Part shown: positions 24,832 through 36,829 of the stretch, in pieces | Numbering within the stretch: the stretch's first letter is position 1 | How the letters are laid out: each line of letters starts with the position of its first letter | Origin: Lachnospiraceae bacterium | Lineage (GTDB): Bacteria; Bacillota; Clostridia; Lachnospirales; Lachnospiraceae | DNA length: 40,353 nt | NCBI GenBank assembly: GCA_017472605.1 | Contig: JAFUPV010000018.1 | Span: 1-40,353 of the forward strand | Direction of reading: 5' to 3' | Translations under genes and position numbers: made by a program | The notes under the pieces: model-generated | Database searches by the model: none | Seen by the model: only the letters and a program-made list of their open reading frames with translations | What the model was told of the DNA's origin: nothing

Positions 24832-25181
24832 TTACACCATCCTTCTTTCCCTCAAACAGCTCATAAGCCGCGTCAATGTCTTTCAGCGCATAGGTATGCG
24901 TGATCAGCGGCGTCGATCCGACAGCCCAGAGCCCAGCCGCCATTGGGATCGGTGCAGTTATTCACATAGCCATGTTTACAGAAAAAGCATTCCCCGCAGA
25001 ACGTCTCCACATTGACGGTTACCCGGTCTCCCGGCCTGACCTTCGTTACCGCAGAGCCAACGGTTTCCACAATCCCCACCATTTCATGGCCCACCGTAAT
25101 GCCGGGAACGGCCCGGATCACCGGCTTTGGCTTCTCCTGCAGCTGAAAGGTTCCGTGTTCCATATAGGTATATGCAAGCAT
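24809..25181 (-). pseudogene. Collapsed zinc-dependent alcohol dehydrogenase
   Basis: Two ends of one gene are joined. From ATG 25181 (GGAGG upstream) the first 105 or so residues are the GroES-like domain with zinc-site features (GHEMVGIVETVGSAVTKV; CGECFFCKHGYVNNC; GGWALGCRID). At about 24912-24918 the sequence jumps, in another frame, to the family C-terminus (TPLITHTYALKDIDAAYELF, then GVIKVAITT, stop at 24809). About 200 codons including the whole NAD-binding fold are deleted and the frames do not match, so no enzyme can be made. The C-terminal remnant overlaps the 3' end of the Crp-type gene on the other strand. Confidence 0.88.
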
Positions 25182-25276
25182 AAAAATGTCCTCCGTCCAC
25201 AAATCATTCGGTATCGATTCCAGTATATCCCCTTTTTCCGTTGATTTCAAGAACAGAATCCGACAGTTCCGGACGC

Positions 25277-25383: not shown

Positions 25384-25941
25384 TTACTCCACAACGTCCG
25401 TTGCTCTCATTGCCAGAATGGTTCGTCCAATCAGATCATCCAGCTCCCAGCCCAGCATCTGAGCGCCCCGTTCAATAACCGGTCTGGAGCATCCTGCCGC
25501 AAAGTTGGCATTCTTATACTTTTTCTTTACAGACTTCACTTCCAGATCGGACACACTTTTCGAAGGACGCATCAGCGCCACTGCGCCGATCAGACCGGTC
25601 AATTCATCCACTGCATAGAGAACTTTTTCCATCTCATGCTCCGGTTCGATGTCCACGGTCAATGCGTAACCGTGACTGGCTGTGGCATGGATGATCCGCT
25701 CATCAATCCCCCGGTCACGCATAATCTCCTGTTCTTTGATACAATGCTGATCCGGATACAATTCGAAATCCAGATCATGAAGCAAACCGACAATTCCCCA
25801 GAACTCTTCTTCTTCTGCATAGCCAAGTTCTCTGGCAAAGTAACGCATGACACCTTCTACGGTCAGCGCATGTTTGATATGAAAGGGTTCTTTGTTATAT
25901 TCACTCAAAAACGAAAACGCGTCCTCTCTTGTCAGCTCCAT
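25384..25941 (-). CDS. HD-superfamily phosphohydrolase-like protein
   Basis: A 185-aa protein with HD-domain signatures: His in HIKHALTVEGVMRYF, the HD pair in GIVGLLHDLDFELYP, and later HATASHGYALT and YAVDELTGLIGAVAL. The family hydrolyses phosphate esters of nucleotides or related molecules with bound metal; the substrate is unknown here. The start at 25941 is preferred because AGGAAG lies 8 nt upstream, within the end of the malY-like gene, 5 nt away. It is the last gene of the metB-malY-HD operon. The C-terminal RTILAMRATDVVE is typical of the HD proteins often annotated 'hydrolase' in Clostridia. Confidence 0.82.
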   Translation of the reverse strand: MELTREDAFSFLSEYNKEPFHIKHALTVEGVMRYFARELGYAEEEEFWGIVGLLHDLDFELYPDQHCIKEQEIMRDRGIDERIIHATASHGYALTVDIEPEHEMEKVLYAVDELTGLIGAVALMRPSKSVSDLEVKSVKKKYKNANFAAGCSRPVIERGAQMLGWELDDLIGRTILAMRATDVVE

Positions 25942-25946
25942 GTTCT

Positions 25947-27125
25947 TCACTTCCTTTGCTCAACCGCTTTCTTCAGCTGATCCAGTGCCTGCTTCAGTAT
26001 GCTGCGTGGGCATGCCAGAACCACACGCTGAAACTGACTGGAATTCTCTCCAAACACATGGCCCGAATCCAGCCACAGCTTCGCGCCATTGACAACCAGA
26101 TCATCCAGCTGGTCACGGGGTAATCCCAGTCCGCTGCAGTCCAGCCATGCAAAGTAAGTTCCCTGCGGCTCTGCCAAACGGATCTGTGGAAGATTCTCCT
26201 GCAAATAGCTTCTCAGGAAATCCAGGTTTTCCCGCATATATGCTTTCACCGCTTTCAGCCAGTCCTCACCGCCCTGATATGCGGCTTTGCAGGCAGCCAG
26301 TCCCAGCATGTTCAGCTGGGAGTAGCCGCAGCGGTCAATTTCTTTTTTTACTTTCTCCCGAAGCGCTCTGCCCGGAATAAAGATATTGGATACCTGCAGA
26401 CCGGCAAGATTGAAGCTCTTGCTGACGGAGGTGCAGAGAATCGTCTTTTCCGCCAGGGACGGACAGGCCGCCGCAAATGGTGTGTGGGGATGCTCATCGA
26501 AGGCAAAATCACAGTGGATCTCATCGGAAACAACGGTTACATCGTATTTTTCACAGATCGCTCCCATCTTCTGCAATTCATCCAGCTTCCATACCCGTCC
26601 TACCGGATTATGAGGGCTGCACAGCAGGAACAGCCGAACCTTATTTTTTGCGATTTTGCGTTCAAAATCGTCGAAGTCAATGTGATACTGACCATTTTCA
26701 TAGATCAGCTCATTTTCAACCACGCTGCGGTCATTGTCCCGTATGACTTCAAAGAAAGGGTAATAGACCGGCGGCTGAATCAGAACGGCCTCTCCCGGCT
26801 CTGTGACAGCTTTCACTGCCATGGCGATAGCAAATACGACCCCCGGCGTTTTTACCAGCCATTCCTTTTGAGGTTTCCAGTTAAAATGGACGGAAAACCA
26901 GTCAGTCACTGCCTGGACATAATCCTCCTTGCTGTCGCTGTATCCAAAAATTCCCAGTTCCACGTTTTTTTTCAGCGCATCCAGAACACACTGGGGAGCC
27001 CGAAAATCCATGTCAGCTACCCACAGCGGCAGAACGTCGGAAGGACGCCCTCTTTCCACCGCAAAGTCATATTTCAGGCAGTCTGTGCCGCGGCGTTCAA
27101 TCACCTGATCAAAATCATATGTCAT
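25947..27125 (-). CDS. MalY/PatB-type pyridoxal-phosphate C-S lyase (cystathionine beta-lyase-like aminotransferase)
   Basis: A 392-aa fold-type I PLP enzyme. The family opening LPLWVADMDFRAP, the ring-stacking region PPVYYPFF, Asp201 in VVSDEIHCDF and the Schiff-base Lys236 in TSVSKSFNLAGLQ are all present. MalY/PatB proteins cleave C-S bonds in cystathionine, cysteine or related thioethers to give a thiol or sulfide, ammonia and a keto acid. It is the second gene in the metB-malY-HD operon. Its ribosome binding site (GAAGGAG, 9 nt before the ATG) lies in the last unit of a 42-bp repeat made from the 3' end of the upstream gene. Confidence 0.9.
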   Translation of the reverse strand: MTYDFDQVIERRGTDCLKYDFAVERGRPSDVLPLWVADMDFRAPQCVLDALKKNVELGIFGYSDSKEDYVQAVTDWFSVHFNWKPQKEWLVKTPGVVFAIAMAVKAVTEPGEAVLIQPPVYYPFFEVIRDNDRSVVENELIYENGQYHIDFDDFERKIAKNKVRLFLLCSPHNPVGRVWKLDELQKMGAICEKYDVTVVSDEIHCDFAFDEHPHTPFAAACPSLAEKTILCTSVSKSFNLAGLQVSNIFIPGRALREKVKKEIDRCGYSQLNMLGLAACKAAYQGGEDWLKAVKAYMRENLDFLRSYLQENLPQIRLAEPQGTYFAWLDCSGLGLPRDQLDDLVVNGAKLWLDSGHVFGENSSQFQRVVLACPRSILKQALDQLKKAVEQRK

Positions 27126-27129
27126 CGTT

Positions 27130-27290
27130 CGATTCTCCTTCCAGCGCCTGTTCCAGATTCACGAGCCAGGCTCATTCCCATTCCAGCGCCCGTTCCAAAT
27201 CCGCAAGTCAGGCTCATTCTCCTTCCAGTGCCTGCTCCAAATTCGCGAGTCAGGCTCATTCTCCTTCCAGCGCCTGTTCCAGATCCGCGA
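27130..27290 (-). repeat. 42-bp tandem duplication of the metB-like gene end (about 4 units)
   Basis: The last 35 or so bp of the metB-like gene with its stop codon and GGAAGGAG motif are repeated three times downstream at exact 42-bp steps (units at 27256, 27214, 27172 and 27130 on the plus strand). Ends such as CTGGAACAGGCGCTGGAAGG recur with few changes. Each copy carries a purine-rich ribosome-binding-like motif. The copy nearest the malY-like ATG provides its ribosome binding site, and there the stop triplet is changed. Confidence 0.93.
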
Positions 27291-28407
27291 TCAGATCCTC
27301 CACGCCTTCCAGACCGACCGAAAGGCGAAGAAGCGTCTCCGTAATTCCAAGATGCTCCCGTACCTCCTTGGGAACATCCGGATGAGTCTGAAGGACCGGA
27401 TAGGTAAGAAGGGATTCCGTGCCGCCAAGGCTTTCTGCAAATGTGATTACTTTCACGTTTTTCAGCAGCTTCAGCGCTGTTTCTTTGCTGTCAACGGAAA
27501 ACGAAATCATGCTGCCTGCGCCCCGTGACTGTGCCGAATTGACTGCAAAACCAGGATGGTCTTTTAATCCGATATAATAAACATGAGATACATGAGGATT
27601 TTTCAGCAGCCACTCTGCCAGCGCCTCTGCATTCTCCTGCTGGCGCTCCATGCGGACAGAAAGTGTCTTGATTCCGCGGAGGACAAGCCAGCTGTCAAAG
27701 GGAGCAAGCGTATTGCCCACTGTCTTTGCAATCAGTCTGACTTTTGCTCCCCACTGCGGATCCGCGCTGCTTAAAAATCCGGCAATGGTGTCATTGTGTC
27801 CGGCCAGAAATTTCGTACCGCTGTGCAGGACAAAGTCCGCGCCGAGAGCAATGGGATTCTGCCAGTATGGGGACAGGAACGTATTGTCCACAGCCAGCAG
27901 TGCGCCATGGCGGTGAGCCAGTTCGGCACAGGCACGGATATCCGTTACATTCATCATCGGATTGCTTGGCGTTTCGATGTAAATCGCTCTTGTCTCTGGG
28001 GTAATTGCTGCTTCCACCTTATCAGGATTGGTCGTATCCACAAAGGATATGGTCAGTCCATTCTTTTCCTCCACATTGTGGAGCAGGCGAACGGTGCCGC
28101 CGTAAAGATCCTCGGAGCAGATAATCTGGTCGCCAGGGTGAAACAGTTCAAAAAACGCGGTAATTGCTGCCATTCCGGAACTGAATGCGGTTGTGTCCGC
28201 CGCTCCCTCCAGAGAAGAAACGGTTTCTTCCAAATGCTGACGGGTCGGATTGGATTCCCGGGTATAATCGAATCCACTGGTATTATGTCCAAGCTCAACA
28301 TGGCTAAAGGATGCGGTCTGGTAAATCGGTATGCTGATTGCCCGGCTGCCCTCCTGATACTTATGGGTATCGCCGTGAATACACCGGGTCTCCAAAGAAT
28401 TTTTCAT
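27256..28407 (-). CDS. Cystathionine gamma-synthase/lyase family PLP enzyme (MetB/MetC-like)
   Basis: A 383-aa trans-sulfuration enzyme. Motifs: TRCIHGD at the N-terminus, YTRESNPTRQHLEETVSSLE, Asp174 in LAVDNTFLSPYWQNPI, and Schiff-base Lys199 in HSGTKFLAGHND. The family includes gamma-synthase, beta- and gamma-lyase and O-acetylhomoserine sulfhydrylase; sequence alone does not settle which. AGGAGG lies 9 nt before the start at 28407. It is the first gene of the metB-malY-HD operon and its promoter shares a 45-bp upstream block with that of the methyltransferase-peptide-transporter operon. The gene's 3' end has been tandemly duplicated. Confidence 0.9.
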   Translation of the reverse strand: MKNSLETRCIHGDTHKYQEGSRAISIPIYQTASFSHVELGHNTSGFDYTRESNPTRQHLEETVSSLEGAADTTAFSSGMAAITAFFELFHPGDQIICSEDLYGGTVRLLHNVEEKNGLTISFVDTTNPDKVEAAITPETRAIYIETPSNPMMNVTDIRACAELAHRHGALLAVDNTFLSPYWQNPIALGADFVLHSGTKFLAGHNDTIAGFLSSADPQWGAKVRLIAKTVGNTLAPFDSWLVLRGIKTLSVRMERQQENAEALAEWLLKNPHVSHVYYIGLKDHPGFAVNSAQSRGAGSMISFSVDSKETALKLLKNVKVITFAESLGGTESLLTYPVLQTHPDVPKEVREHLGITETLLRLSVGLEGVEDLIADLEQALEGE

Positions 28408-28475
28408 AAACAGTTTCCTCCTGCATTTCCTTTGCATTTTTATTTCCTGTAATTCCTATTTGTATTGCAGTAATT

Positions 28476-28544
28476 ATTATAGTTCATTCTGCCAAAACCG
28501 TCCAATTCCTGTTATCTATAACCGGTTATAAAACATTCCTATAG
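28476..28544 (-). promoter_or_regulatory. Promoter and upstream operator of the metB-like operon
   Basis: On the minus strand the -35 TTGGAC (28500-28505), 18-nt spacer and TATAAT (28476-28481). Upstream, 28500-28544 contains (plus-strand reading) GTCCAATTCCTGTT, the palindrome TATAACCGGTTATA, and TTCCTATA. Blocks and spacing recur at 36785-36829. The position just upstream of -35 fits a LysR-type activator. The leader is about 60 nt, too short for a riboswitch. Confidence 0.75.
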
Positions 28545-28585
28545 AAGCTTTGTTTTCTGTTTCTTTCCCTTTCATCAAACGGGTT

Positions 28586-30043
28586 TTACAGTTCCAGCTG
28601 ATCTAATTTCAAAATGGAATGAATATAGATTCGGAAGCCAATCAACCAGCTTTCAATATTCAATGTTTCATCCGGTCCATGGGCATTTCCATGGCCTTCC
28701 GGAAGGAAATCAGGACGCACGTTCCGATAGCGGAGTCCAGGTCCATAGCTGATGGCATTTGGCACAACGCGGCTATACGTTCCGCCGCCCATGGTATATG
28801 GCTTTGCATCGTCACCGGTAATCTCTTTGTAAATCTGCATCAGAGCCGTAACCTTCGGGTCAGACGGATTAATGTAATAAGGATTGGAAATGTCTTTCTC
28901 TGTAATCTGTACCTGATTCTCTGCCAGAACCTGATCCAGGATTGCCGTAATCTGCTCTGCTTTCACCGTTACCGGATAGCGGATGTCAATATCCACTTTC
29001 AGATGACCGTCCTCTTTTTTGATCACACCGGCATTCAGCGTCAGCTTTCCGGATTCCTGGTCCTCAAAGTCAATGCCCAGACCGCTGCCGTACGGAGAAA
29101 TAAATGCATCTGCGAGAAATGAAATACCGGCAAGATCCAGCTTCTGAATCAGTTCACTGGAGCGGACAGCCTCTGCCAGTCTGCGGATGGCATTGTCCCC
29201 GCCTTCCGGAAATGCCGCATGACCGGATTTTCCTCTGGCAGTAATCGCGACACAGGAACCTGCCGCTTCCACTTCAATTCCAATCTGACCTGCCAGTGCT
29301 TCTTCTGCTTCTTTTACCGTTACACCTTTTATGGTAAGGACGGCTGTGTCCGGAATGATGTTTCTCACGCTTCCCGCAGAAAAATCCACAATATCTGAGC
29401 CGGCCGGAATCAGAAGCGCCGCATTATAACCGCCTTTCTGTCCATAGCAGACCGGAAATCCCGCATCCGCCACAATGCTGACTGCCGGAACCGTTCCATT
29501 CAGTTCATTGAGATAGTGCCGATAATCAGCCATTCCTGTTTCTTCCGCGCAGCCCAGCATCAGTCGGATTGTCTTCTTCAAAGAAATCTGTGTTTCCTTC
29601 AAAAATTTCATTGCTGACAGCACAAGAACCGCAGATCCCTTGTTATCACCAACACCGCGCCCGATCAGAAAACCATCTTTTTCTACCGGTTTGTAAGGCT
29701 CATAGATCCAGTGATCACCCTCCGGCACCACGTCCAGATGGCAGACAAAGCCGATTTCATTCGGTTCCGGATTTGCTCCTTCTTCCCCTGCCAGCTGTCC
29801 GTCCAGAAAAATGTCTCCGCAGTATCCGGAATTATCACGAACCCGAAATCCCAGCTCTTCTGCGCGCAGCAGCGCGAAATCCAGCATCTTTCTGCAGTCC
29901 GGACCATAGGGCGCTCCTTCTTCTGCCAGATCCGCCCTGGATACGGACGGGTGAGATACCCACTGCTTCAGTTCTTCTACCATCCATGTTTTATTTGTTT
30001 CCAGCCACTGATCCAGCTTCTGATCCAATTGATTTGTTGTCAT
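28586..30043 (-). CDS. M20 family dipeptidase (PepV/Sapep-like)
   Basis: A 485-aa zinc/manganese peptidase. Metal ligands and catalytic residues can be placed: CHLDVVPEGD (His102, Asp104), GRGVGDNKG (Asp133), CAEETGM (Glu167/Glu168), VADAGFP (Asp193) and the C-terminal EGHGNAHGPDE. The lid domain carries ARGKSGHAAFPEGGDNAI. PepV-type enzymes split dipeptides in the cytoplasm. GGAGG precedes the ATG. It is the last gene of the operon with an Opp-type transporter, so it probably hydrolyses the imported peptides; a 16-bp hairpin separates it from oppF. Confidence 0.9.
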   Translation of the reverse strand: MTTNQLDQKLDQWLETNKTWMVEELKQWVSHPSVSRADLAEEGAPYGPDCRKMLDFALLRAEELGFRVRDNSGYCGDIFLDGQLAGEEGANPEPNEIGFVCHLDVVPEGDHWIYEPYKPVEKDGFLIGRGVGDNKGSAVLVLSAMKFLKETQISLKKTIRLMLGCAEETGMADYRHYLNELNGTVPAVSIVADAGFPVCYGQKGGYNAALLIPAGSDIVDFSAGSVRNIIPDTAVLTIKGVTVKEAEEALAGQIGIEVEAAGSCVAITARGKSGHAAFPEGGDNAIRRLAEAVRSSELIQKLDLAGISFLADAFISPYGSGLGIDFEDQESGKLTLNAGVIKKEDGHLKVDIDIRYPVTVKAEQITAILDQVLAENQVQITEKDISNPYYINPSDPKVTALMQIYKEITGDDAKPYTMGGGTYSRVVPNAISYGPGLRYRNVRPDFLPEGHGNAHGPDETLNIESWLIGFRIYIHSILKLDQLEL

Positions 30044-30085
30044 TGCATTTCCTCCGTTCTCTGATCCATTGTTGCGAACTGATGC

Positions 30086-30129
30086 GCAGCGGCAGATTCC
30101 GCCATGAAATGACCGGAATCTGCCGCTGC
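30086..30129 (-). other. Perfect 16-bp intercistronic hairpin without T-run
   Basis: GCAGCGGCAGATTCCG (30086-30101) and CGGAATCTGCCGCTGC (30114-30129) pair perfectly around 12 nt. No T-run follows on either strand. It lies just after the oppF stop, in the 90-nt gap before the dipeptidase gene, so an RNA-stability, processing or attenuation role is likelier than termination. Confidence 0.8.
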
Positions 30130-30133
30130 CTGC

Positions 30134-31132
30134 TTAAATTCCCTGGCCCGCATATTTCGTATATTCATGATGACATGCACACCAGTGATTTTCACCGATC
30201 TGTTCAAATTTCGGCATCTCCTGACAGCACCGAACTGTCGCATAGGGACAGCGGGTATGAAACGGACATCCGGCCGGCGGGTTCAGCGGACTTGGAATTT
30301 CTCCCTGCAGAACCTGATGGGTACGCTTCACACCGGTCTGGGGAAGAGGAATTGCCGAAAGCAGCGCCTGCGTGTACGGATGTCTTGGATTTTCATACAG
30401 TTCCTTCTTGTCCGCCAGCTCCACAACATGGCCCAGATACATGACAGCCGCCTTATTGCAGATGTATTTCACCACACTCAGATCATGGGATATGAACATG
30501 GATGTAAACTGCAGTTCCTTTTTCAGATCATCCAGCAGATTCAGCAGCTGGGAGCGAACTGACACATCCAGAGCAGATACCGGTTCATCAAAAACAATGA
30601 ATTCCGGCTTCAGAATCAAAGCCCTTGCAATCACAATTCGCTGTCTCTGTCCGCCGGAAAATTCATGAGGATAACGATTCTGAAATTCTTTTTTCAAGCC
30701 GGTCAGCTCCATGATCTCGTCGATCTTTTCCTGCCGCTCCTTCGGCGTTCCAATCTGGAACACCCGCAGCGGCGATTCGATGATCTCCCGCACCGTCATT
30801 CTCGGATTTAAGGAAGCATAGGGATCCTGAAACACCATCTGCATCTTCTGTCTCATCTTTCGCATCTGCTCCCGGTCAAGAGTGGTCAGATCCGTTCCCT
30901 TATAAATCATCGTTCCGGATTCCGGCTCCACCAGTCTGAGAACCGTCCTTGCCAGCGTGGACTTTCCGCATCCGGACTCTCCTACGATTCCCAGCATGTC
31001 GCCTTTCTCCAGTGTCAGGCTGACACCATTTACGGCACTGACTTTTTTGACCGGTTTTCCAAGCATACTTTTTTCTGTCACATAGGAAGTATGTACATCT
31101 TCCAGCTGTAAAATTGGTGTTTCCTGACTCAT
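30134..31132 (-). CDS. Oligopeptide/dipeptide ABC transporter ATPase (OppF/DppF-like)
   Basis: A 332-aa ATPase. Walker A GESGCGKST (51-59), signature FSGGQRQR (159-166), Walker B FIVFDEPVSALD. The C-terminal oligopeptide-transporter domain has the cysteine pattern GCPFHTRCPYATVRCC...WCACH, which in Dpp-type ATPases can ligate an iron-sulfur cluster (family knowledge). The start overlaps the oppD stop by 4 bp, so the two ATPases are translated together. It energises import of the peptide substrate together with OppD and OppBC. Confidence 0.93.
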   Translation of the reverse strand: MSQETPILQLEDVHTSYVTEKSMLGKPVKKVSAVNGVSLTLEKGDMLGIVGESGCGKSTLARTVLRLVEPESGTMIYKGTDLTTLDREQMRKMRQKMQMVFQDPYASLNPRMTVREIIESPLRVFQIGTPKERQEKIDEIMELTGLKKEFQNRYPHEFSGGQRQRIVIARALILKPEFIVFDEPVSALDVSVRSQLLNLLDDLKKELQFTSMFISHDLSVVKYICNKAAVMYLGHVVELADKKELYENPRHPYTQALLSAIPLPQTGVKRTHQVLQGEIPSPLNPPAGCPFHTRCPYATVRCCQEMPKFEQIGENHWCACHHEYTKYAGQGI

Positions 31133-32118
31133 AAGAACTCCTCCATTACCGATTCATACTGCCAGCATTTTACCTGTTTTCCGCTGAAGCGGAATGCCGG
31201 CGGTTCCTGCTGTCTGCATTTTTCCGTTGCATAGGGACAGCGGTTGCAGAAGCGGCAGCCCTGGCGGATGGTTCCGGGAAGCGGCACACTTCCCGGAATC
31301 GAATACAATCGCTCATTGTCCGGCTGATCCAGCCTTGGAATGGATTTTAACAATCCTTTTGTATATGGATGCAGCGGCGCTTCAAAAATATCTGCTGTCG
31401 TTCCTGTTTCCACCACATGTCCGGCATACATGACATAAACACGATCCGTCATTTCCGCCACAACGCCCATGTCATGGGTGATCAGCAGAACCGACATATC
31501 CGCCTCATCCCGGACTGTTTTGATCAGCTGCAGAATGTGATCCTGAATGGTCACATCCAGTGCCGTTGTCGGCTCATCGGCAATCAGCAGATGGGAATGA
31601 TGGAGCATTGCCAGCGCAATCATGACACGCTGTCTCATACCTCCGGACAGCTGGTGGGCATACTCATTGATTCTCACCTCCGGCGCGGGAATTCCTACGC
31701 TTGCCAGCATGGAAATGCTCTCCTGAAGGGCTTCTCTCTTTGAAACATTCCGATGGGAACGGATGGCTTCCACCATGATCTTGCGAAGGGGAAGTACCGG
31801 ATCCAGTCCTGTCAGGGAATCCTGAAAGACCACCGAAATTTCCTTTCCTCTGATTGCTCGGAGTTCTTTCGGACTTTTCTTCAGAAGGTCTTCTCCTTCA
31901 TAAAGGATCTGGCTGTCTGCCCCATACACGGTATTGGACGCGTTCAGCTGCAGAAGAGACATGGCTGTCACACTTTTTCCGCAGCCGGATTCTCCTACGA
32001 TTCCAATGATTTCCCGTCTGTCAATATGAAAATCCACACCATCCACAACAGGAACCGTTCCCTTTTTATTCTGAAATGAAATCTTTAAATTTTTGACATC
32101 AAGAAGCCTTTCATTCAT
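31129..32118 (-). CDS. Oligopeptide/dipeptide ABC transporter ATPase (OppD/DppD-like)
   Basis: A 329-aa ATPase with Walker A GESGCGKSV (42-50), signature LSGGMRQR, Walker B LLIADEPTTALDVT and the H-loop ITHDMGVVAEM. The C-terminus again has the cysteine set GCRFCNRCPYATEKC. It lies 12 nt after the peptide-binding-protein gene and overlaps oppF by 4 bp. The heterodimer with OppF drives the OppBC channel. Confidence 0.93.
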   Translation of the reverse strand: MNERLLDVKNLKISFQNKKGTVPVVDGVDFHIDRREIIGIVGESGCGKSVTAMSLLQLNASNTVYGADSQILYEGEDLLKKSPKELRAIRGKEISVVFQDSLTGLDPVLPLRKIMVEAIRSHRNVSKREALQESISMLASVGIPAPEVRINEYAHQLSGGMRQRVMIALAMLHHSHLLIADEPTTALDVTIQDHILQLIKTVRDEADMSVLLITHDMGVVAEMTDRVYVMYAGHVVETGTTADIFEAPLHPYTKGLLKSIPRLDQPDNERLYSIPGSVPLPGTIRQGCRFCNRCPYATEKCRQQEPPAFRFSGKQVKCWQYESVMEEFL

Positions 32119-32130
32119 TGATCATCCCTC

Positions 32131-33693
32131 TTATTCTTCTACTTTCCAGGTCCAGGAAAGCTTATTGTTCCAGTAATCAACCGTCGAAATCGGCAGATTG
32201 GAAATTCTGTTGTTATACGCAACCAGACGGTCTGAGAAATACAGCATTACAAGCGGATGCTCCTGTACAAAATACAGCTGGTATTCATCATAAATCGGCT
32301 TTCTCTCTTCGAAGCTCAGACCAGCCTTACCGGCATCGCCCAGTTCTTTAAACTTTGGATCGGTTGTGTGGGAGAAATAATCCACAGCGCCTGCGCCTGC
32401 CGGATCATAAGTTCCCGCTGCGCCCATCAGAAGCAGATCATATTTATTATCTCTCATGTTCTGGAGAGCGGTTGCAAAGTCATAGGTTACGATTTCTGTC
32501 TGAATGCCTACTGCGGCCAGATTCTGCTGGATCAGGATTGCGGAACGCTCTCTTGCCTGATTTCCCTTTGGTACAGTCAGGTTCAGCACCCGGTCAAAAT
32601 CCCATCCCTCTTCTTCCAGAAGCTGTCGTGCATACTCCGGATCATAGGTCTGTTCCGTGATTTCTTCATTATAATAAGGATGTGTGCTTGGAAGAACGGT
32701 GATCGCCGGTTCACCATAGCCCTTCAGCAGCTGATCGACAAGAAGCTGCTTGTTGATTGCCGCGTCAATGGCTTCACGAACCTTTGTGGTAAATGCCTCA
32801 TCTTCCAGATTGATTACCAGAGTCTGGAACTGGTTGGAGGTAACGGATTCCAAAGTGATGGCATCGCTTTCCTGGATGATGTCCAGGTCAGAAAGAGAAA
32901 TATCGCTGGTAATATCCACTTCACCGTTTAACAGACCTGCAGCCAGTGTGGAAGCGTCCATGAAACGGATGACCAGACGGTCGAAATCCGGCGCGCCAAG
33001 ATAGTAATCTTCATTTGCTGTATACTCAACGCGTTCACCATCGATCTGGCTGTCAAATTTGAATGGACCGGAGCCAATCGGCGCATCCCAGAAGTCTGCA
33101 TCGGCCAGCTCCGTATCCGGAATATCAGCCAGCAGATGAGCAGGAAGAATGAAGCTGTTGAGACTGGTCAGTACCAGATCCGGATCACGCTCTGTCTTTA
33201 ATGTCATTTCAACCGTATGGTCATCCACAGCGGTTACTGCGATGGAATCCTCGGATAATTCATATCCGGTATCGTCGGTTCCCTCCACATAGGGGGATGT
33301 TCCCGCCAGCCATCCTGCTTCCTTGTTGGTCTTTACCTGGAATGTATAAACGACATCCTCGGCAGTAACCGGCACGCCATCATGCCATGTGGCATCCTCA
33401 TTGAGGTGGAAGGTGACCTTCGTTCCGTCAATTTCCCAGCTGTCTGCCAGTCTCGGGCTGTAGCTTCCATCGTTGTTTCCGATCAGCAGCTTATCAAAAA
33501 TCTCTTCAATGACCACATGGGTCGGTGTACTTGTTGTTGCCATGAAATTAAAGGTTTCCCAGAGGGTTGACACGCCAAGAGTAACGGTCTTTTCTTCCTC
33601 TTCTGCCCTTACTGCAGACGGAGCTGCCAGTGAGGAAAGGACAAGGGCTGCGGCTGCTACTGCAGCAGATACGGTTTTTGCAAATTTTCTCAT
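32131..33693 (-). CDS. Family 5 peptide-binding protein of ABC transporter, without lipobox
   Basis: A 520-aa SBP_bac_5 protein: GVSTLWETFNF, ATTSTPTHVVIEEIFDKLLIGNNDG, the family motif around WEIDGTKVTFHLNEDATWHDGVPVTAEDV, and QTYDPEYARQLLEEEGWD. The signal peptide (MRKFAKTVSAAVAAAALVLS, cleavage near SAVRA-EEEE) has no cysteine, so lipid anchoring is not predicted. The start at 33693 has AAGGAGGAG 8 nt upstream. It captures the peptide (or other family-5 ligand such as nickel chelates or opines) for OppBCDF. The accompanying dipeptidase favours peptides. Confidence 0.9.
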   Translation of the reverse strand: MRKFAKTVSAAVAAAALVLSSLAAPSAVRAEEEEKTVTLGVSTLWETFNFMATTSTPTHVVIEEIFDKLLIGNNDGSYSPRLADSWEIDGTKVTFHLNEDATWHDGVPVTAEDVVYTFQVKTNKEAGWLAGTSPYVEGTDDTGYELSEDSIAVTAVDDHTVEMTLKTERDPDLVLTSLNSFILPAHLLADIPDTELADADFWDAPIGSGPFKFDSQIDGERVEYTANEDYYLGAPDFDRLVIRFMDASTLAAGLLNGEVDITSDISLSDLDIIQESDAITLESVTSNQFQTLVINLEDEAFTTKVREAIDAAINKQLLVDQLLKGYGEPAITVLPSTHPYYNEEITEQTYDPEYARQLLEEEGWDFDRVLNLTVPKGNQARERSAILIQQNLAAVGIQTEIVTYDFATALQNMRDNKYDLLLMGAAGTYDPAGAGAVDYFSHTTDPKFKELGDAGKAGLSFEERKPIYDEYQLYFVQEHPLVMLYFSDRLVAYNNRISNLPISTVDYWNNKLSWTWKVEE

Positions 33694-33759
33694 AATCAAA
33701 ACTCCTCCTTTATCTCATCACCGCAGAGGATTGCCTGTTCCTGCGGCTCTGTTATCGAT

Positions 33760-34659
33760 TTATCTGTGATAGCTGACATCCAGCGCGTCTCTTAATCCGT
33801 CTCCGACAAAGTTGATGGCAGATACGGTGATCAGAAGCAGAATGCCTGCCGGAATCCAGCGCCATGGCTGATAGGTAAGAACGGATATGCTCTGTGCTCC
33901 GTTGAGAATGTTTCCCCAGGATGCCTGAGGCGGCTGTACGCCAAGACCAAGAAAGCTTAATCCGGATTCCTGAAGGATGGCGCTGGCAATGTGAAAGGTA
34001 AAGGAAATCAGGATCGGCGTTACTGTGTTTGGAAGAATGTATCGGACCAGAATGGACCGGTCCTTCTCACCAATGGCACGCGCCGCCTCGACATATTCCT
34101 TTTCCCTTGCGGAAAGAACACTTCCATAAATCATCTTGGTAAATCCGGTCCATCCCATGACTCCCATGACGCAGGTCAGGGTTACAATGGAGGTTCCGGT
34201 GATGGAAACCACAACCAGGATCAGGATCATGGATGGGATTGCCGAAAAAATTTCTGACGCCCGAAGGATGATGATCTCTGCGGCGCCCCGGTAATAGCCG
34301 GCAATCAGTCCAAGCGGAACTCCTATCAGAAGACTGATGATGGAGGAACAGAAACCAACGGACAGGGAAACTCTTCCGCCGTAAACAAGACGGGCAAACA
34401 CATCTCTGCCCACATCATCGGTTCCAAGAATGTGTCCTTTTCCCGGTGCTGACTCAAATGCCATGAAGTCACTGGTAATTGGATCCAGCTTTAATATCAT
34501 CGGCAGGAAAATGATCAGAAGCACTTCGATCACTAAAAGCACTGCACTGACAACTGCCAGCTTATGCTGGACAAAACGCTCCGCCACATCCCGCAGGAAG
34601 GAACGCTTTTTCTCTTCTTTCTTTGTTTCTGCCGCAGCTGCGGCTGTATCAATCTGCAT
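33760..34659 (-). CDS. Peptide ABC transporter permease (OppC/DppC-like)
   Basis: A 299-aa permease. The cytoplasmic N-terminus (KKEEKKRSFLRDVAERF) precedes the first membrane segment. The OppC signature HILGTDDVGRDVFARLVYGGRVSL and the EAA loop EYVEAARAIGEKDRSILVRYILPN are present, as is the late motif GLSFLGLGVQPPQASWGNIL. AAAGGAG precedes the ATG. It pairs with OppB in the membrane. Confidence 0.93.
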   Translation of the reverse strand: MQIDTAAAAAETKKEEKKRSFLRDVAERFVQHKLAVVSAVLLVIEVLLIIFLPMILKLDPITSDFMAFESAPGKGHILGTDDVGRDVFARLVYGGRVSLSVGFCSSIISLLIGVPLGLIAGYYRGAAEIIILRASEIFSAIPSMILILVVVSITGTSIVTLTCVMGVMGWTGFTKMIYGSVLSAREKEYVEAARAIGEKDRSILVRYILPNTVTPILISFTFHIASAILQESGLSFLGLGVQPPQASWGNILNGAQSISVLTYQPWRWIPAGILLLITVSAINFVGDGLRDALDVSYHR

Positions 34660-34693
34660 TTGCTGTATTTACTCCTTTCCCGAATTTTCTCAC

Positions 34694-35674
34694 TCAGGAA
34701 CGATTGCGGCTGTGGCGGATTCGCGGATCCGCGATTCCGTAAGCGACATCCAGAAGCAGGTTGCTGAGAAGTACAACTGCTGAAATGAAAACGGTCATTC
34801 CCATGATCACCGGATAATCTCTGGAATTGATGGACTGAACCATCAGGCTTCCAAGACCAGGCCAGGAAAAAATCTGTTCTGTGATTACCGCGCCGCTGAT
34901 GATGAAGGGGAGCATTCCCATCAGAACTGTCAGGATGGGGATCAGCGCGTTGCGAAGTCCGTGGCGAAGAACGACCAGTACCTCTCCCACGCCCTGTGCT
35001 CGCGATGTCCGGATGAAATCACTGCCCAGAACATCCAGCATGCTTCCTCTTGTCTGGCGCAGGATGCTTCCGATCTGCTGGAAACACAGCGTCGTCATCG
35101 GAAGGATCATGTGCTTCAGCAGACTGGGAAGACTGGTGTCCCTGGCGGAATCATACATGCCGCTGCTGGGAAGAATCTTCACCTTAACAGCGAAGAAGTA
35201 GATCAGAAGCATGCCGATGAAAAAGTTTGGCATGCTTGCTCCGATGAAAGAAAAAGCGGATGAAATGTAGTCCCACAGGGAGTAGGGTTTGTATGCGGAC
35301 ATAATTCCAAGAACAATCGCAATCACTGCAGACAGGCAGGTTGCCGACAATGTCAGAAGAACGGTGGATCCAATTCTGCTCATGATCATCTCCAGCACCG
35401 CATCTTTCGTTCGGTAGGAGGTTCCCAGGTTTCCCTGGAGCAGCTGCAGGAGCCATTTTCCATATTGGACGATGACCGGCTGGTCCAGTCCCAGCTTCGC
35501 TTCTACCTCCACATATTTCTCAGGCGTCATCTCCGAAAGATCATTGACCTCGCCGCCCATCAGCATTTCCGCCGGACTGCCTGGAGCACAGCTGGCAAGT
35601 ACGTAAACCAGAAGTGTAATTCCCAGGAAGACCGGAATGGATATCAGAATCCGCTTAATGATGAATTTTTTCAT
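34694..35674 (-). CDS. Peptide ABC transporter permease (OppB/DppB-like)
   Basis: A 326-aa permease. The first membrane helix (KRILISIPVFLGITLLVYVL) is followed by the periplasm-side DPP/OPP loop (PGSPAEMLMGG, LGLDQPVIVQYGKWL), the EAA region DFIRTSRAQGVGEVLVVLRH and the late motif VITEQIFSWPGLGSLMVQSI. It follows the methyltransferase gene by 21 nt and precedes oppC by 34 nt in one operon. Confidence 0.93.
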   Translation of the reverse strand: MKKFIIKRILISIPVFLGITLLVYVLASCAPGSPAEMLMGGEVNDLSEMTPEKYVEVEAKLGLDQPVIVQYGKWLLQLLQGNLGTSYRTKDAVLEMIMSRIGSTVLLTLSATCLSAVIAIVLGIMSAYKPYSLWDYISSAFSFIGASMPNFFIGMLLIYFFAVKVKILPSSGMYDSARDTSLPSLLKHMILPMTTLCFQQIGSILRQTRGSMLDVLGSDFIRTSRAQGVGEVLVVLRHGLRNALIPILTVLMGMLPFIISGAVITEQIFSWPGLGSLMVQSINSRDYPVIMGMTVFISAVVLLSNLLLDVAYGIADPRIRHSRNRS

Positions 35675-35695
35675 GTCAGGATCCTACCCTTTCTA

Positions 35696-36700
35696 TTATA
35701 AAGAAGCTGCTTTATCTCTGACCCATCTGAGACGTTCGATGTCAATATCACTTGGAACGGTGCAGTCAGCGCCGATGATCACGCCCTTCTTTCCCGCCTC
35801 CGCAACGATTTTCTCTACATAGGCTTCGATTTCTTCTTTTGTTCCGGAATAGAGAAGTCCTTCCTTCACATTGTCGAAGCCGCCGATTACCGCCCGGTTT
35901 CCAAAATATGCTTTGCCGTCCTTCAGGCTTGTTTCCTCTGCATGTACCGCCCAGTTGACAACGGATACATCATAATCTCTGTATACAGAGAGGATATTTT
36001 TGTTTCCGGCATAACCGCAGATGTGGAGGATGTTGTCCTGTGCCAGTTCCCTGGCCGCTTTGAGGATCTTCCTGTCTGCCGGTGAAAGGAAGGTGGAGTA
36101 GATCTGTGCCGGAATGGTACGGTTCGGATTGCTTACGCTTAAATAAAGTCCATCCGCAAGTCCCGGTTTGATTACCAGCTTCAGCAGTTCGATGATGCTG
36201 TCCGCAATCACGTCCAGTGCCGCCGCAACTGCTGCCGCGTCTTCCGTCAGGAACTCCTTCAGCTTCTCAAGACCGGAGCGGAACTGTCCTGGCTTTGCAA
36301 GTCCGCCTGACAGCTGATTAAACGGGGAGAACGCATTAAAGAAAAGAAGTCTGTCTTCTCCTGCCAGCTCACGGATCCTTCGAACCAGCTCCACATTTTT
36401 TTCAAAAAACGGATGATCTGCCGGGATTGGCTTCAGGTTTTTCAGATCCTGAACGGTTTTCACCGACGAAAAATCAAATGGCAGGTAGAAGAAGCCGTCT
36501 GTCATGATCTTTACAAAATCCGGATCGAATTCTTCCAGGAATTTTTTGTGTCCGGCAAGGTTCTTTTCCAATACCTCCGGATCCTTCAGTCCTGCGTTGA
36601 ACTCGCTGCCCTCAAGGAAATGGAACCAGAAACCGACCGGGATTCGCTCGGTCTCCTCATTATGAAATGCCTTTAATACCAGTTCTCTCTTTGTACTCAT
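35696..36700 (-). CDS. UroD/MtaA-superfamily zinc methyltransferase-like protein
   Basis: A 334-aa TIM-barrel protein of the uroporphyrinogen decarboxylase superfamily (MSTKRELVLKAFHNEETERIPVGFW opening). It lacks the arginine-rich N-terminal substrate motif of true HemE. Instead it has the zinc-thiolate set of the MtaA/MtbA/CmuA methyltransferases: His226 and Cys228 (LHICGYAG) with Cys313 (IGADCTVPSD). It is therefore more likely to move methyl groups to or from a thiol or corrinoid than to make haem. No corrinoid protein is encoded nearby. AAGGAGG precedes the start. It leads the operon with the peptide transporter and dipeptidase and shares its promoter element with the C-S lyase operon, which hints at S-methyl or thiol metabolism. 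Confidence 0.85.
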   Translation of the reverse strand: MSTKRELVLKAFHNEETERIPVGFWFHFLEGSEFNAGLKDPEVLEKNLAGHKKFLEEFDPDFVKIMTDGFFYLPFDFSSVKTVQDLKNLKPIPADHPFFEKNVELVRRIRELAGEDRLLFFNAFSPFNQLSGGLAKPGQFRSGLEKLKEFLTEDAAAVAAALDVIADSIIELLKLVIKPGLADGLYLSVSNPNRTIPAQIYSTFLSPADRKILKAARELAQDNILHICGYAGNKNILSVYRDYDVSVVNWAVHAEETSLKDGKAYFGNRAVIGGFDNVKEGLLYSGTKEEIEAYVEKIVAEAGKKGVIIGADCTVPSDIDIERLRWVRDKAASL

Positions 36701-36760
36701 ATCTATGTTCCTCCTTATTCCACATTTCCTATCTGTTTAGTATGTTTTGTTGTGTGACCT

Positions 36761-36829
36761 ATTATATTTCCAATCCGGTCAGTTGTCCAATTCCTGTTCT
36801 TTATGGCTGGTTATAGGTTTTTCCTATAT
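36761..36829 (-). promoter_or_regulatory. Promoter and upstream operator of the methyltransferase-peptide transporter operon
   Basis: On the minus strand the -35 TTGGAC (36785-36790), 18-nt spacer and TATAAT (36761-36766). The block 36785-36829 has GTCCAATTCCTGTT, GGTTATA and TTCCTATA (plus-strand reading) at offsets 0, 24 and 36, exactly as at the metB-like promoter (34 of 45 identical). Confidence 0.75.

Follow-up and report, generated by a model that had tools for sequence, protein, structure and literature searches.

This analysis concerns a 40,353-nucleotide stretch of DNA (contig JAFUPV010000018.1 of the Lachnospiraceae bacterium assembly GCA_017472605.1), referred to here as the window, and two of its operons whose promoters carry closely similar upstream elements. 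The first element lies upstream of the metB-like, patB, and HD genes, and the second upstream of UroD1-oppB-oppC-oppA-oppD-oppF-Sapep. The presence of a shared MET-box promoter at both operons, beside a LysR gene, and in some relatives suggests that peptide uptake, C-S bond cleavage, and a putative zinc-thiol methyltransferase are switched on together for the supply of methionine and sulfur.

All genes discussed in this pair of operons are read from the minus strand. The first operon opens with a metB-like pyridoxal phosphate enzyme of cysteine/methionine metabolism (27256..28407), for which the nearest NCBIfam model is cystathionine gamma-lyase/homocysteine desulfhydrase, below its cut-off. 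Its start is most likely at 28407, behind AGGAGG, rather than at the first in-frame ATG at 28437. It is followed by a PatB-family C-S lyase (25947..27125; TIGR04350, 467.5 bits against a cut-off of 340) and by an HD-domain hydrolase (25384..25950), which matches its models below their cut-offs and is the final intact gene of the operon. Directly 3' of the HD gene is a short open reading frame (24873-25250, 125 aa) resembling zinc alcohol dehydrogenases, which appears truncated.

The second operon begins with UroD1 (35696..36700), a UroD-fold protein and putative zinc S-methyltransferase with invariant H226, C228, and C313, assigned from models, alignment, and fold. Next come, by model matches, an OppB-type permease (34694..35674) and an OppC-type permease (33760..34659), then an Opp/Dpp-type substrate-binding protein (OppA, 32131..33699) whose best PDB match is a dipeptide-binding protein, OppD-type (31129..32118) and OppF-type (30134..31132) ATPases, again by model matches, and finally an M20 dipeptidase of the Sapep family (28586..30043; TIGR01887, 307.8 bits against a cut-off of 207.95).

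The first-pass annotation paired a 45-bp element at 28500-28544 with one at 36785-36829, and this pairing was borne out: the two are identical at 34 of 45 positions and contain the blocks named there, compared with 28 of 45 at the next-best place for site 1 in the window and a best match of 23-28 of 45 after shuffling the window 50 times in blocks of 2-6 bases. The promoters that it described also stand as proposed, with the same TTGGAC -35 and 18-nt spacer to TATAAT at both metB and UroD1. Read along the minus strand, both follow the order box, 21 nt, TTGGAC, 18 nt, TATAAT. At metB the predicted LysR site, a MET-box-like TATAG-N7-TTATA with one mismatch, is at 28527..28543, the -35 at 28500..28505, and the -10 at 28476..28481; at UroD1 the predicted site, a perfect TATAG-N7-CTATA, is at 36812..36828, the -35 at 36785..36790, and the -10 at 36761..36766. 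Both sites were assigned by a spacing test and promoter scoring, and the hexamers by sequence and promoter scoring. One correction is needed, in that the conserved unit is a 17-bp inverted repeat, TATAG-N7-CTATA, and not the whole 45 bp. Riboswitch control of these operons was also considered and set aside, as Rfam at gathering thresholds gave only a GA-cis RNA in the window. That RNA (RF02987; 65.2 bits, gathering threshold 34.7) is at 161-247, near the contig end.

Where else does the element occur in this genome (3.68 Mb, 75 contigs)? A 43-position pattern derived from the window's two sites, with up to three mismatches, found one extra site (C66:47774-47816, three mismatches) and none in the reversed control. 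A fourth copy (C66:212477-212521) lies between a LysR gene (212503-213411) and metY (211036-212343), and its box is perfect. A pattern covering all four sites, at ≤3 mismatches, returned exactly those four genome-wide and none in the reversed control; because the four were already familiar when this pattern was drawn up, they match it without mismatch by construction, and it is the absence of further sites that is informative. Beyond the box, three of the four have AACAGGAATTGGAC in common. The LysR gene was retrieved independently of the site position, that is, not by scanning near the fourth copy, but as a homologue (68% identity) of the LysR gene that adjoins UroD1 clusters in the nearest relatives. 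Compared with NCBIfam, its product has no MtaR model among the 25 best matches listed, and the other LysR models score below their cut-offs. For the window, a sulfur-metabolism regulator of the LysR type with its gene elsewhere had been postulated; this gene, which adjoins metY with its copy of the element, supports that proposal.

The extra site at C66:47774-47816 precedes a second UroD operon (L004, C66:38818-47704), which holds UroD2, an aldo/keto reductase, a Sapep, an ABC (ATP-binding cassette) binding protein, two permeases, and a second Sapep; these calls were made from translation, with additional model searches for UroD and AraC. Its ABC genes are of the sugar type. Several genomes of the family (L122, L123, L127-L130) also have UroD2 together with Sapep, the reductase, or both. 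Opposite this third site, and divergent from the operon, is an AraC-family gene (C66:48147-49139). Two other UroD paralogues, at C63:6739-7698 (adjoining an aldo/keto reductase gene) and C66:155081-155914, had no element in weight-matrix scans of their surroundings.

The spacing of the 17-bp box was varied in LysR and UroD loci. LysR homologues at E≤1e-70 occur in 180 of the 299 genomes of the family, and the 30 best loci were kept; box counts cover all 30, including L089 and L102, and gene annotation covers the other 28. A perfect TATAG-N7-CTATA occurs in 14 of the 30, compared with 0-1 at each of the nine other spacings when the gap was varied from 3 to 12. Allowing one mismatch raises the count at spacing 7 to 21 boxes in 19 loci, and each other spacing then has 1-7 boxes. 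In 18 named UroD loci there are six perfect boxes in four loci at spacing 7 and none at any other spacing; one of the six (L048) falls within an open reading frame. In the LysR loci, this shape adjoins LysR and is often upstream of metY, metN, or metQ.

Promoter geometry was scored in thirty box-promoter rows, with the metY site counted once. Of these, 24 combine a distance of exactly 21 nt to the -35 with a spacer of 18 nt, out of 24 offsets and four spacers that the scoring permitted. The six that depart from this are two L050 rows, L087 and L096 as read on the opposite strand, and two rows of L042. These two spacings would place the box centre at about -66, and LysR activators usually bind near -66. 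A position upstream of the -35 had already been read in the first-pass annotation as fitting a LysR activator, and both the centre and the core sequence are in keeping with this. The streptococcal MET box bound by the LysR activators MtaR and CmhR is given as TATAGTTTnAAACTATA in the available excerpts of the published accounts (PMC2627894, PMC5359408), and the box described here has identical half-sites and spacing. Judged by its sequence, the core of the element is a known form of the LysR methionine-regulator box.

In relatives, the box recurs at homologous operons. In L120, from another genus of the same family, a one-mismatch box with the full promoter geometry stands before oppB-oppC-oppA-oppD-oppF-Sapep-UroD1 (48-63% identity). 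In L042 and L043, from deer-rectum metagenome genomes, separate boxes precede metB-patB and the operon holding UroD1 (77% and 69% identity, respectively), and LysR and Rrf2 genes are adjacent. In L126 the order is LysR, box, metB, patB, binding protein, UroD, permeases, ATPase. In L122 (genome G214) UroD2 and Sapep come immediately after LysR, and the box before metY, downstream of them, was found in a looser scan only. In Enterococcus malodoratus, a box separates metEF from a divergent LysR gene that shares 48% identity with the LysR at C66:212503-213411, and another LysR gene (36%) is found between metB and UroD1. The longer form behaves differently. Its 28-bp core, at ≤3 mismatches, was found upstream of no UroD, Opp, or metB gene in 97 other genomes, and gave 11 stray matches in 10 of the 97, nine inside long open reading frames and two (L012, L022) not. 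The long 45-bp operator was therefore rejected as a family-wide element.

Sulfur genes recur around UroD. Within 7.5 kb of 36 UroD loci, several on contigs that end early, the neighbours are amino-acid ABC genes in 17 (L046 and L137 only through weak ATPase matches), MetB in 9, PatB in 8, CysK in 6, Sapep in 6, LysR in 5, aldo/keto reductase in 5, and Opp in 1. In eight (L042, L051-L053, L124, L126, L134, L135) UroD is inside the ABC operon itself. Among solved structures, YtmK (E 4.2e-13) is nearest to the binding protein of the L042 ABC transporter, and the window's OppA is nearest to dipeptide-binding proteins. This exchange of an amino-acid ABC transporter for Opp plus a dipeptidase points to an amino acid as the substrate, one that would enter the window strain in peptide form, and, with YtmK as the nearest structure in the relatives, the substrate of UroD1 is probably a sulfur amino acid.

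We consider it likely that the element is a site for an MtaR/CmhR-like LysR activator, which would co-activate peptide uptake, C-S cleavage, and UroD1 for methionine and sulfur supply. When methionine or cysteine is low, the LysR protein would activate the metY, metB-patB-HD, and UroD1-oppBCADF-Sapep1 promoters. Opp would then bring in peptides, and the Sapep dipeptidase would release their amino acids. PatB, together with the MetB-like enzyme, would break or re-form C-S bonds, with MetY fixing the sulfur into homocysteine. UroD1 would transfer a methyl group to or from sulfur, and an imported methylated sulfur compound would in this way yield methionine or a free thiol. The regulatory part of this scheme draws on several kinds of sequence evidence, and the chemical part we infer.

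It is important to set against this reading a number of observations that weigh the other way. The UroD2-operon copy has three mismatches among the ten half-site bases, which makes its regulation by the same LysR protein doubtful. A 44-bp general pattern searched genome-wide at ≤2 mismatches gave four matches (three perfect) against 20 in the reversed control, so its weak matches, including the single one that it adds (C72:54203), carry no meaning. The 28-bp pattern has no match in the genus-mates G001 and G002, and in G001 no box was found at up to 1.5 kb from its LysR gene. On a strict scan the box occurs in only five of the 36 UroD loci (L042, L043, L056, L120, L126), and that of L056 stands before metEF. 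The stand-alone UroD1 homologues (L044-L047, L049) have different upstream sequence, which points to another regulator there. For the enzyme, the MtaA/CmuA model TIGR01463 gives UroD1 41.5 bits against a cut-off of 235.4, and the window contig encodes no corrinoid protein. With boxes at some relatives' operons but none at most UroD loci, the element is real and shared without being a fixed companion of UroD. Conservation in relatives, put forward at the outset as a check, thus held for the 17-bp form in some relatives and failed for the 28-bp pattern in the genus-mates. As a separate observation, the upstream regions of L044-L047 and L049 have in common a stretch around TTATTAATCATATTAGT, followed further on by a promoter-like TATAGTA/TATAATA.

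What might UroD1 do? The fold is equal to that of HemE and of a Methanosarcina mazei methyltransferase, with MetE next; by sequence, the UroD alignment found one weak match among solved structures, to a HemE. A HemE function was rejected because the hemE model scores far below its cut-off (22.4 against 302.95 bits). The residues H226, C228, and C313 are invariant in 22 of 22 aligned homologues, and an invariant His-Cys-Cys is described, in the available text of PMC10418091, as a mark of S/Se-methyltransferases within the UroD superfamily. The zinc-thiolate enzyme of the first-pass annotation is thereby supported as a type of site, and the most likely role of UroD1 is to add a methyl group to a sulfur atom or to take one away. 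A different view would be that the operons serve general peptide and amino-acid nutrition and that UroD1 has no role in methyl transfer, being for example a porphyrin-related or structural paralogue. The breadth of Opp and Sapep systems and the scores of UroD1 below both the hemE and mtaA_cmuA cut-offs would suit this, but the invariant His-Cys-Cys site, with the meaning given to it in that source, and the recurrence of sulfur genes as neighbours (MetB 9/36, PatB 8/36, CysK 6/36) argue against it, and we regard it as unlikely.

Another binder of the element is also to be weighed, either the AraC-family protein encoded opposite the UroD2 operon or a repressor of the Rrf2/CymR kind. The leaders bear on this, as each window promoter has a candidate second element on the minus strand: ATAGGAATT at 28451..28459 for metB, from sequence and promoter scoring, and ACTAAACAGATAGGAAA at 36725..36741 for UroD1, from a pattern search and promoter scoring. 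The motif ATAGGAA occurs within 130 nt after 12 of the 30 scored box promoters, against about 0.7 expected, and the fuller pattern ACTAAAnnGATAGGAAA is not enriched genome-wide (11 matches, 17 in the reversed control). The Rrf2 protein of L042 and L043 has CymR as its nearest equivalog model (139.7 of 195 bits), and the ATAGGAA element may serve such an Rrf2/CymR-like protein coded beside LysR there. An AraC gene directly facing the third site, Rrf2 genes adjoining LysR in L042 and L043, and the ATAGGAA excess all speak for a different binder. Yet the box accompanies LysR genes, its inverted-repeat form and its position are those of a LysR activator site, the AraC gene is not near the genome's three other sites, and the genome's own Rrf2 gene adjoins iscS/nifU-like genes and is nearest to IscR, below cut-off. 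A reading of AGGAA direct repeats as an AraC site was abandoned once the box was found beside LysR genes, and, with ACTAAAnnGATAGGAAA unenriched and the genome's own Rrf2 nearest to IscR, CymR/Rrf2 found no support as the binder of the main element. A binder other than LysR is, in our estimate, slightly less probable even than a purely nutritional role.

UroD1 could instead belong to a type 1 mlp (methyl-selenide/methyl-sulfide) corrinoid system. The superfamily and the His-Cys-Cys site are in common, and sulfur and methionine genes are near some such clusters according to the available parts of PMC10418091. Such a system is improbable here, since the window operon has one UroD-family gene and its contig no B12-binding protein, and the combination of Mlp2, Mlp3, and corrinoid protein that a type 1 cluster requires is absent from the operon. 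The three B12-binding genes found in the genome are on other contigs (C19, C33, C52), one beside a different UroD-like gene. The C19 pair (L113 52-1881), an MtaC-like corrinoid protein beside that other UroD-like gene, looks like a more classical methyltransferase pair. Least probable of all is that the two promoters are recent duplicates whose similarity has no regulatory meaning: AACAGGAATTGGAC is present in three of the four sites and the longer form is absent at comparable genes of the other genomes searched, but box and promoter geometry recur at lower identity at homologous operons of other genera (L120, L042, L043), and the box also stands beside LysR homologues.

Under the LysR-activator reading, a bolder proposal can be offered tentatively, although we hold it to be rather doubtful. 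UroD1 would be the founder of a group of corrinoid-independent, zinc-dependent S-methyltransferases that pass the methyl group of an imported methylated sulfur amino acid to homocysteine or another thiol, for methionine salvage in gut Firmicutes, under an MtaR-like LysR switch and with interchangeable uptake modules (an amino-acid ABC transporter, or Opp plus a dipeptidase). The methyl sources of this salvage branch would be, for example, S-methylcysteine or S-methylmethionine, freed from dietary peptides by the Sapep dipeptidase.

UroD-like genes are common, and most have no function assigned to them. Here an orphan group of UroD-fold enzymes with a thiol-type zinc site would be tied to methionine and sulfur supply in gut anaerobes, with a candidate regulator named, and a regulon placing a UroD gene among genes of sulfur amino-acid transport narrows the substrate to a short list. 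If methyl transfer is true, dietary methylated sulfur compounds would be a gut source of methionine or methanethiol, and whether a strain carries an amino-acid ABC transporter or Opp with a dipeptidase would be a readable signature of its scavenging target. The first-pass annotation had called the route undescribed; because the regulator type has a described counterpart in MtaR/CmhR, that word fits the cargo and not the switch. What is new is the coupling of a UroD-fold enzyme to amino-acid ABC genes or to Opp and a dipeptidase, and the switch is of a known kind. Searches of open-licence PubMed Central papers brought up nothing relevant on MtaR in Lachnospiraceae or the MET box in Clostridia, nor on the UroD family together with sulfur, methionine, and ABC transporters, with S-methylcysteine, or with dipeptidase operons.

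Four known systems invite comparison. YtmK of Bacillus subtilis belongs to a sulfur amino-acid ABC transporter type (ytmI operon). It is a distant match, as the nearest solved structure, to the binding protein that partners UroD1 in L042, whereas the window strain has Opp and a dipeptidase in that place. The Staphylococcus hominis route for Cys-Gly-3M3SH, as described in the available portions of PMC11742315, PMC7385124, and PMC6059767, comprises a transporter, a PepV-type dipeptidase, and a C-S lyase. There too, peptide uptake, dipeptidase, and C-S lyase act in series, on an S-substituted cysteine peptide; unlike that route, the window has an Opp ABC transporter, PatB instead of the staphylococcal lyase, an additional UroD-type gene, and promoters that would be co-regulated.

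MtaA, MtbA, MtsA, and the Mlps of type 1 mlp clusters resemble UroD1 in superfamily, His-Cys-Cys site, and sulfur-gene surroundings, as far as the excerpted text of PMC10418091 goes. By the same account they differ from the window operon, which has neither a corrinoid protein nor a second Mlp. UroD1 also falls below the MtaA/CmuA cut-off and is placed with a LysR box and with peptide or amino-acid transport.

The closest counterpart is the MtaR/MetR/CmhR regulon, which likewise has a LysR-type regulator and the 17-bp inverted repeat TATAG-N7-CTATA. According to the available sections of PMC2627894 and PMC5359408, metB-csd is among the streptococcal MtaR/CmhR targets, and an mtaR mutant of group B streptococci shows lowered expression of a metQ cluster that carries an M20 peptidase. 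The metB-csd pair and M20 peptidase there are paralleled here by metB-patB and an M20 (Sapep) dipeptidase, with csd being, as we infer, the equivalent of PatB. The host differs, being a Lachnospiraceae-type Clostridium relative, and so do the varying centre of the box (not TTTnAAA) and the second leader element. Here, unlike in the streptococcal regulon, the box also stands at an Opp operon and a UroD-fold protein.

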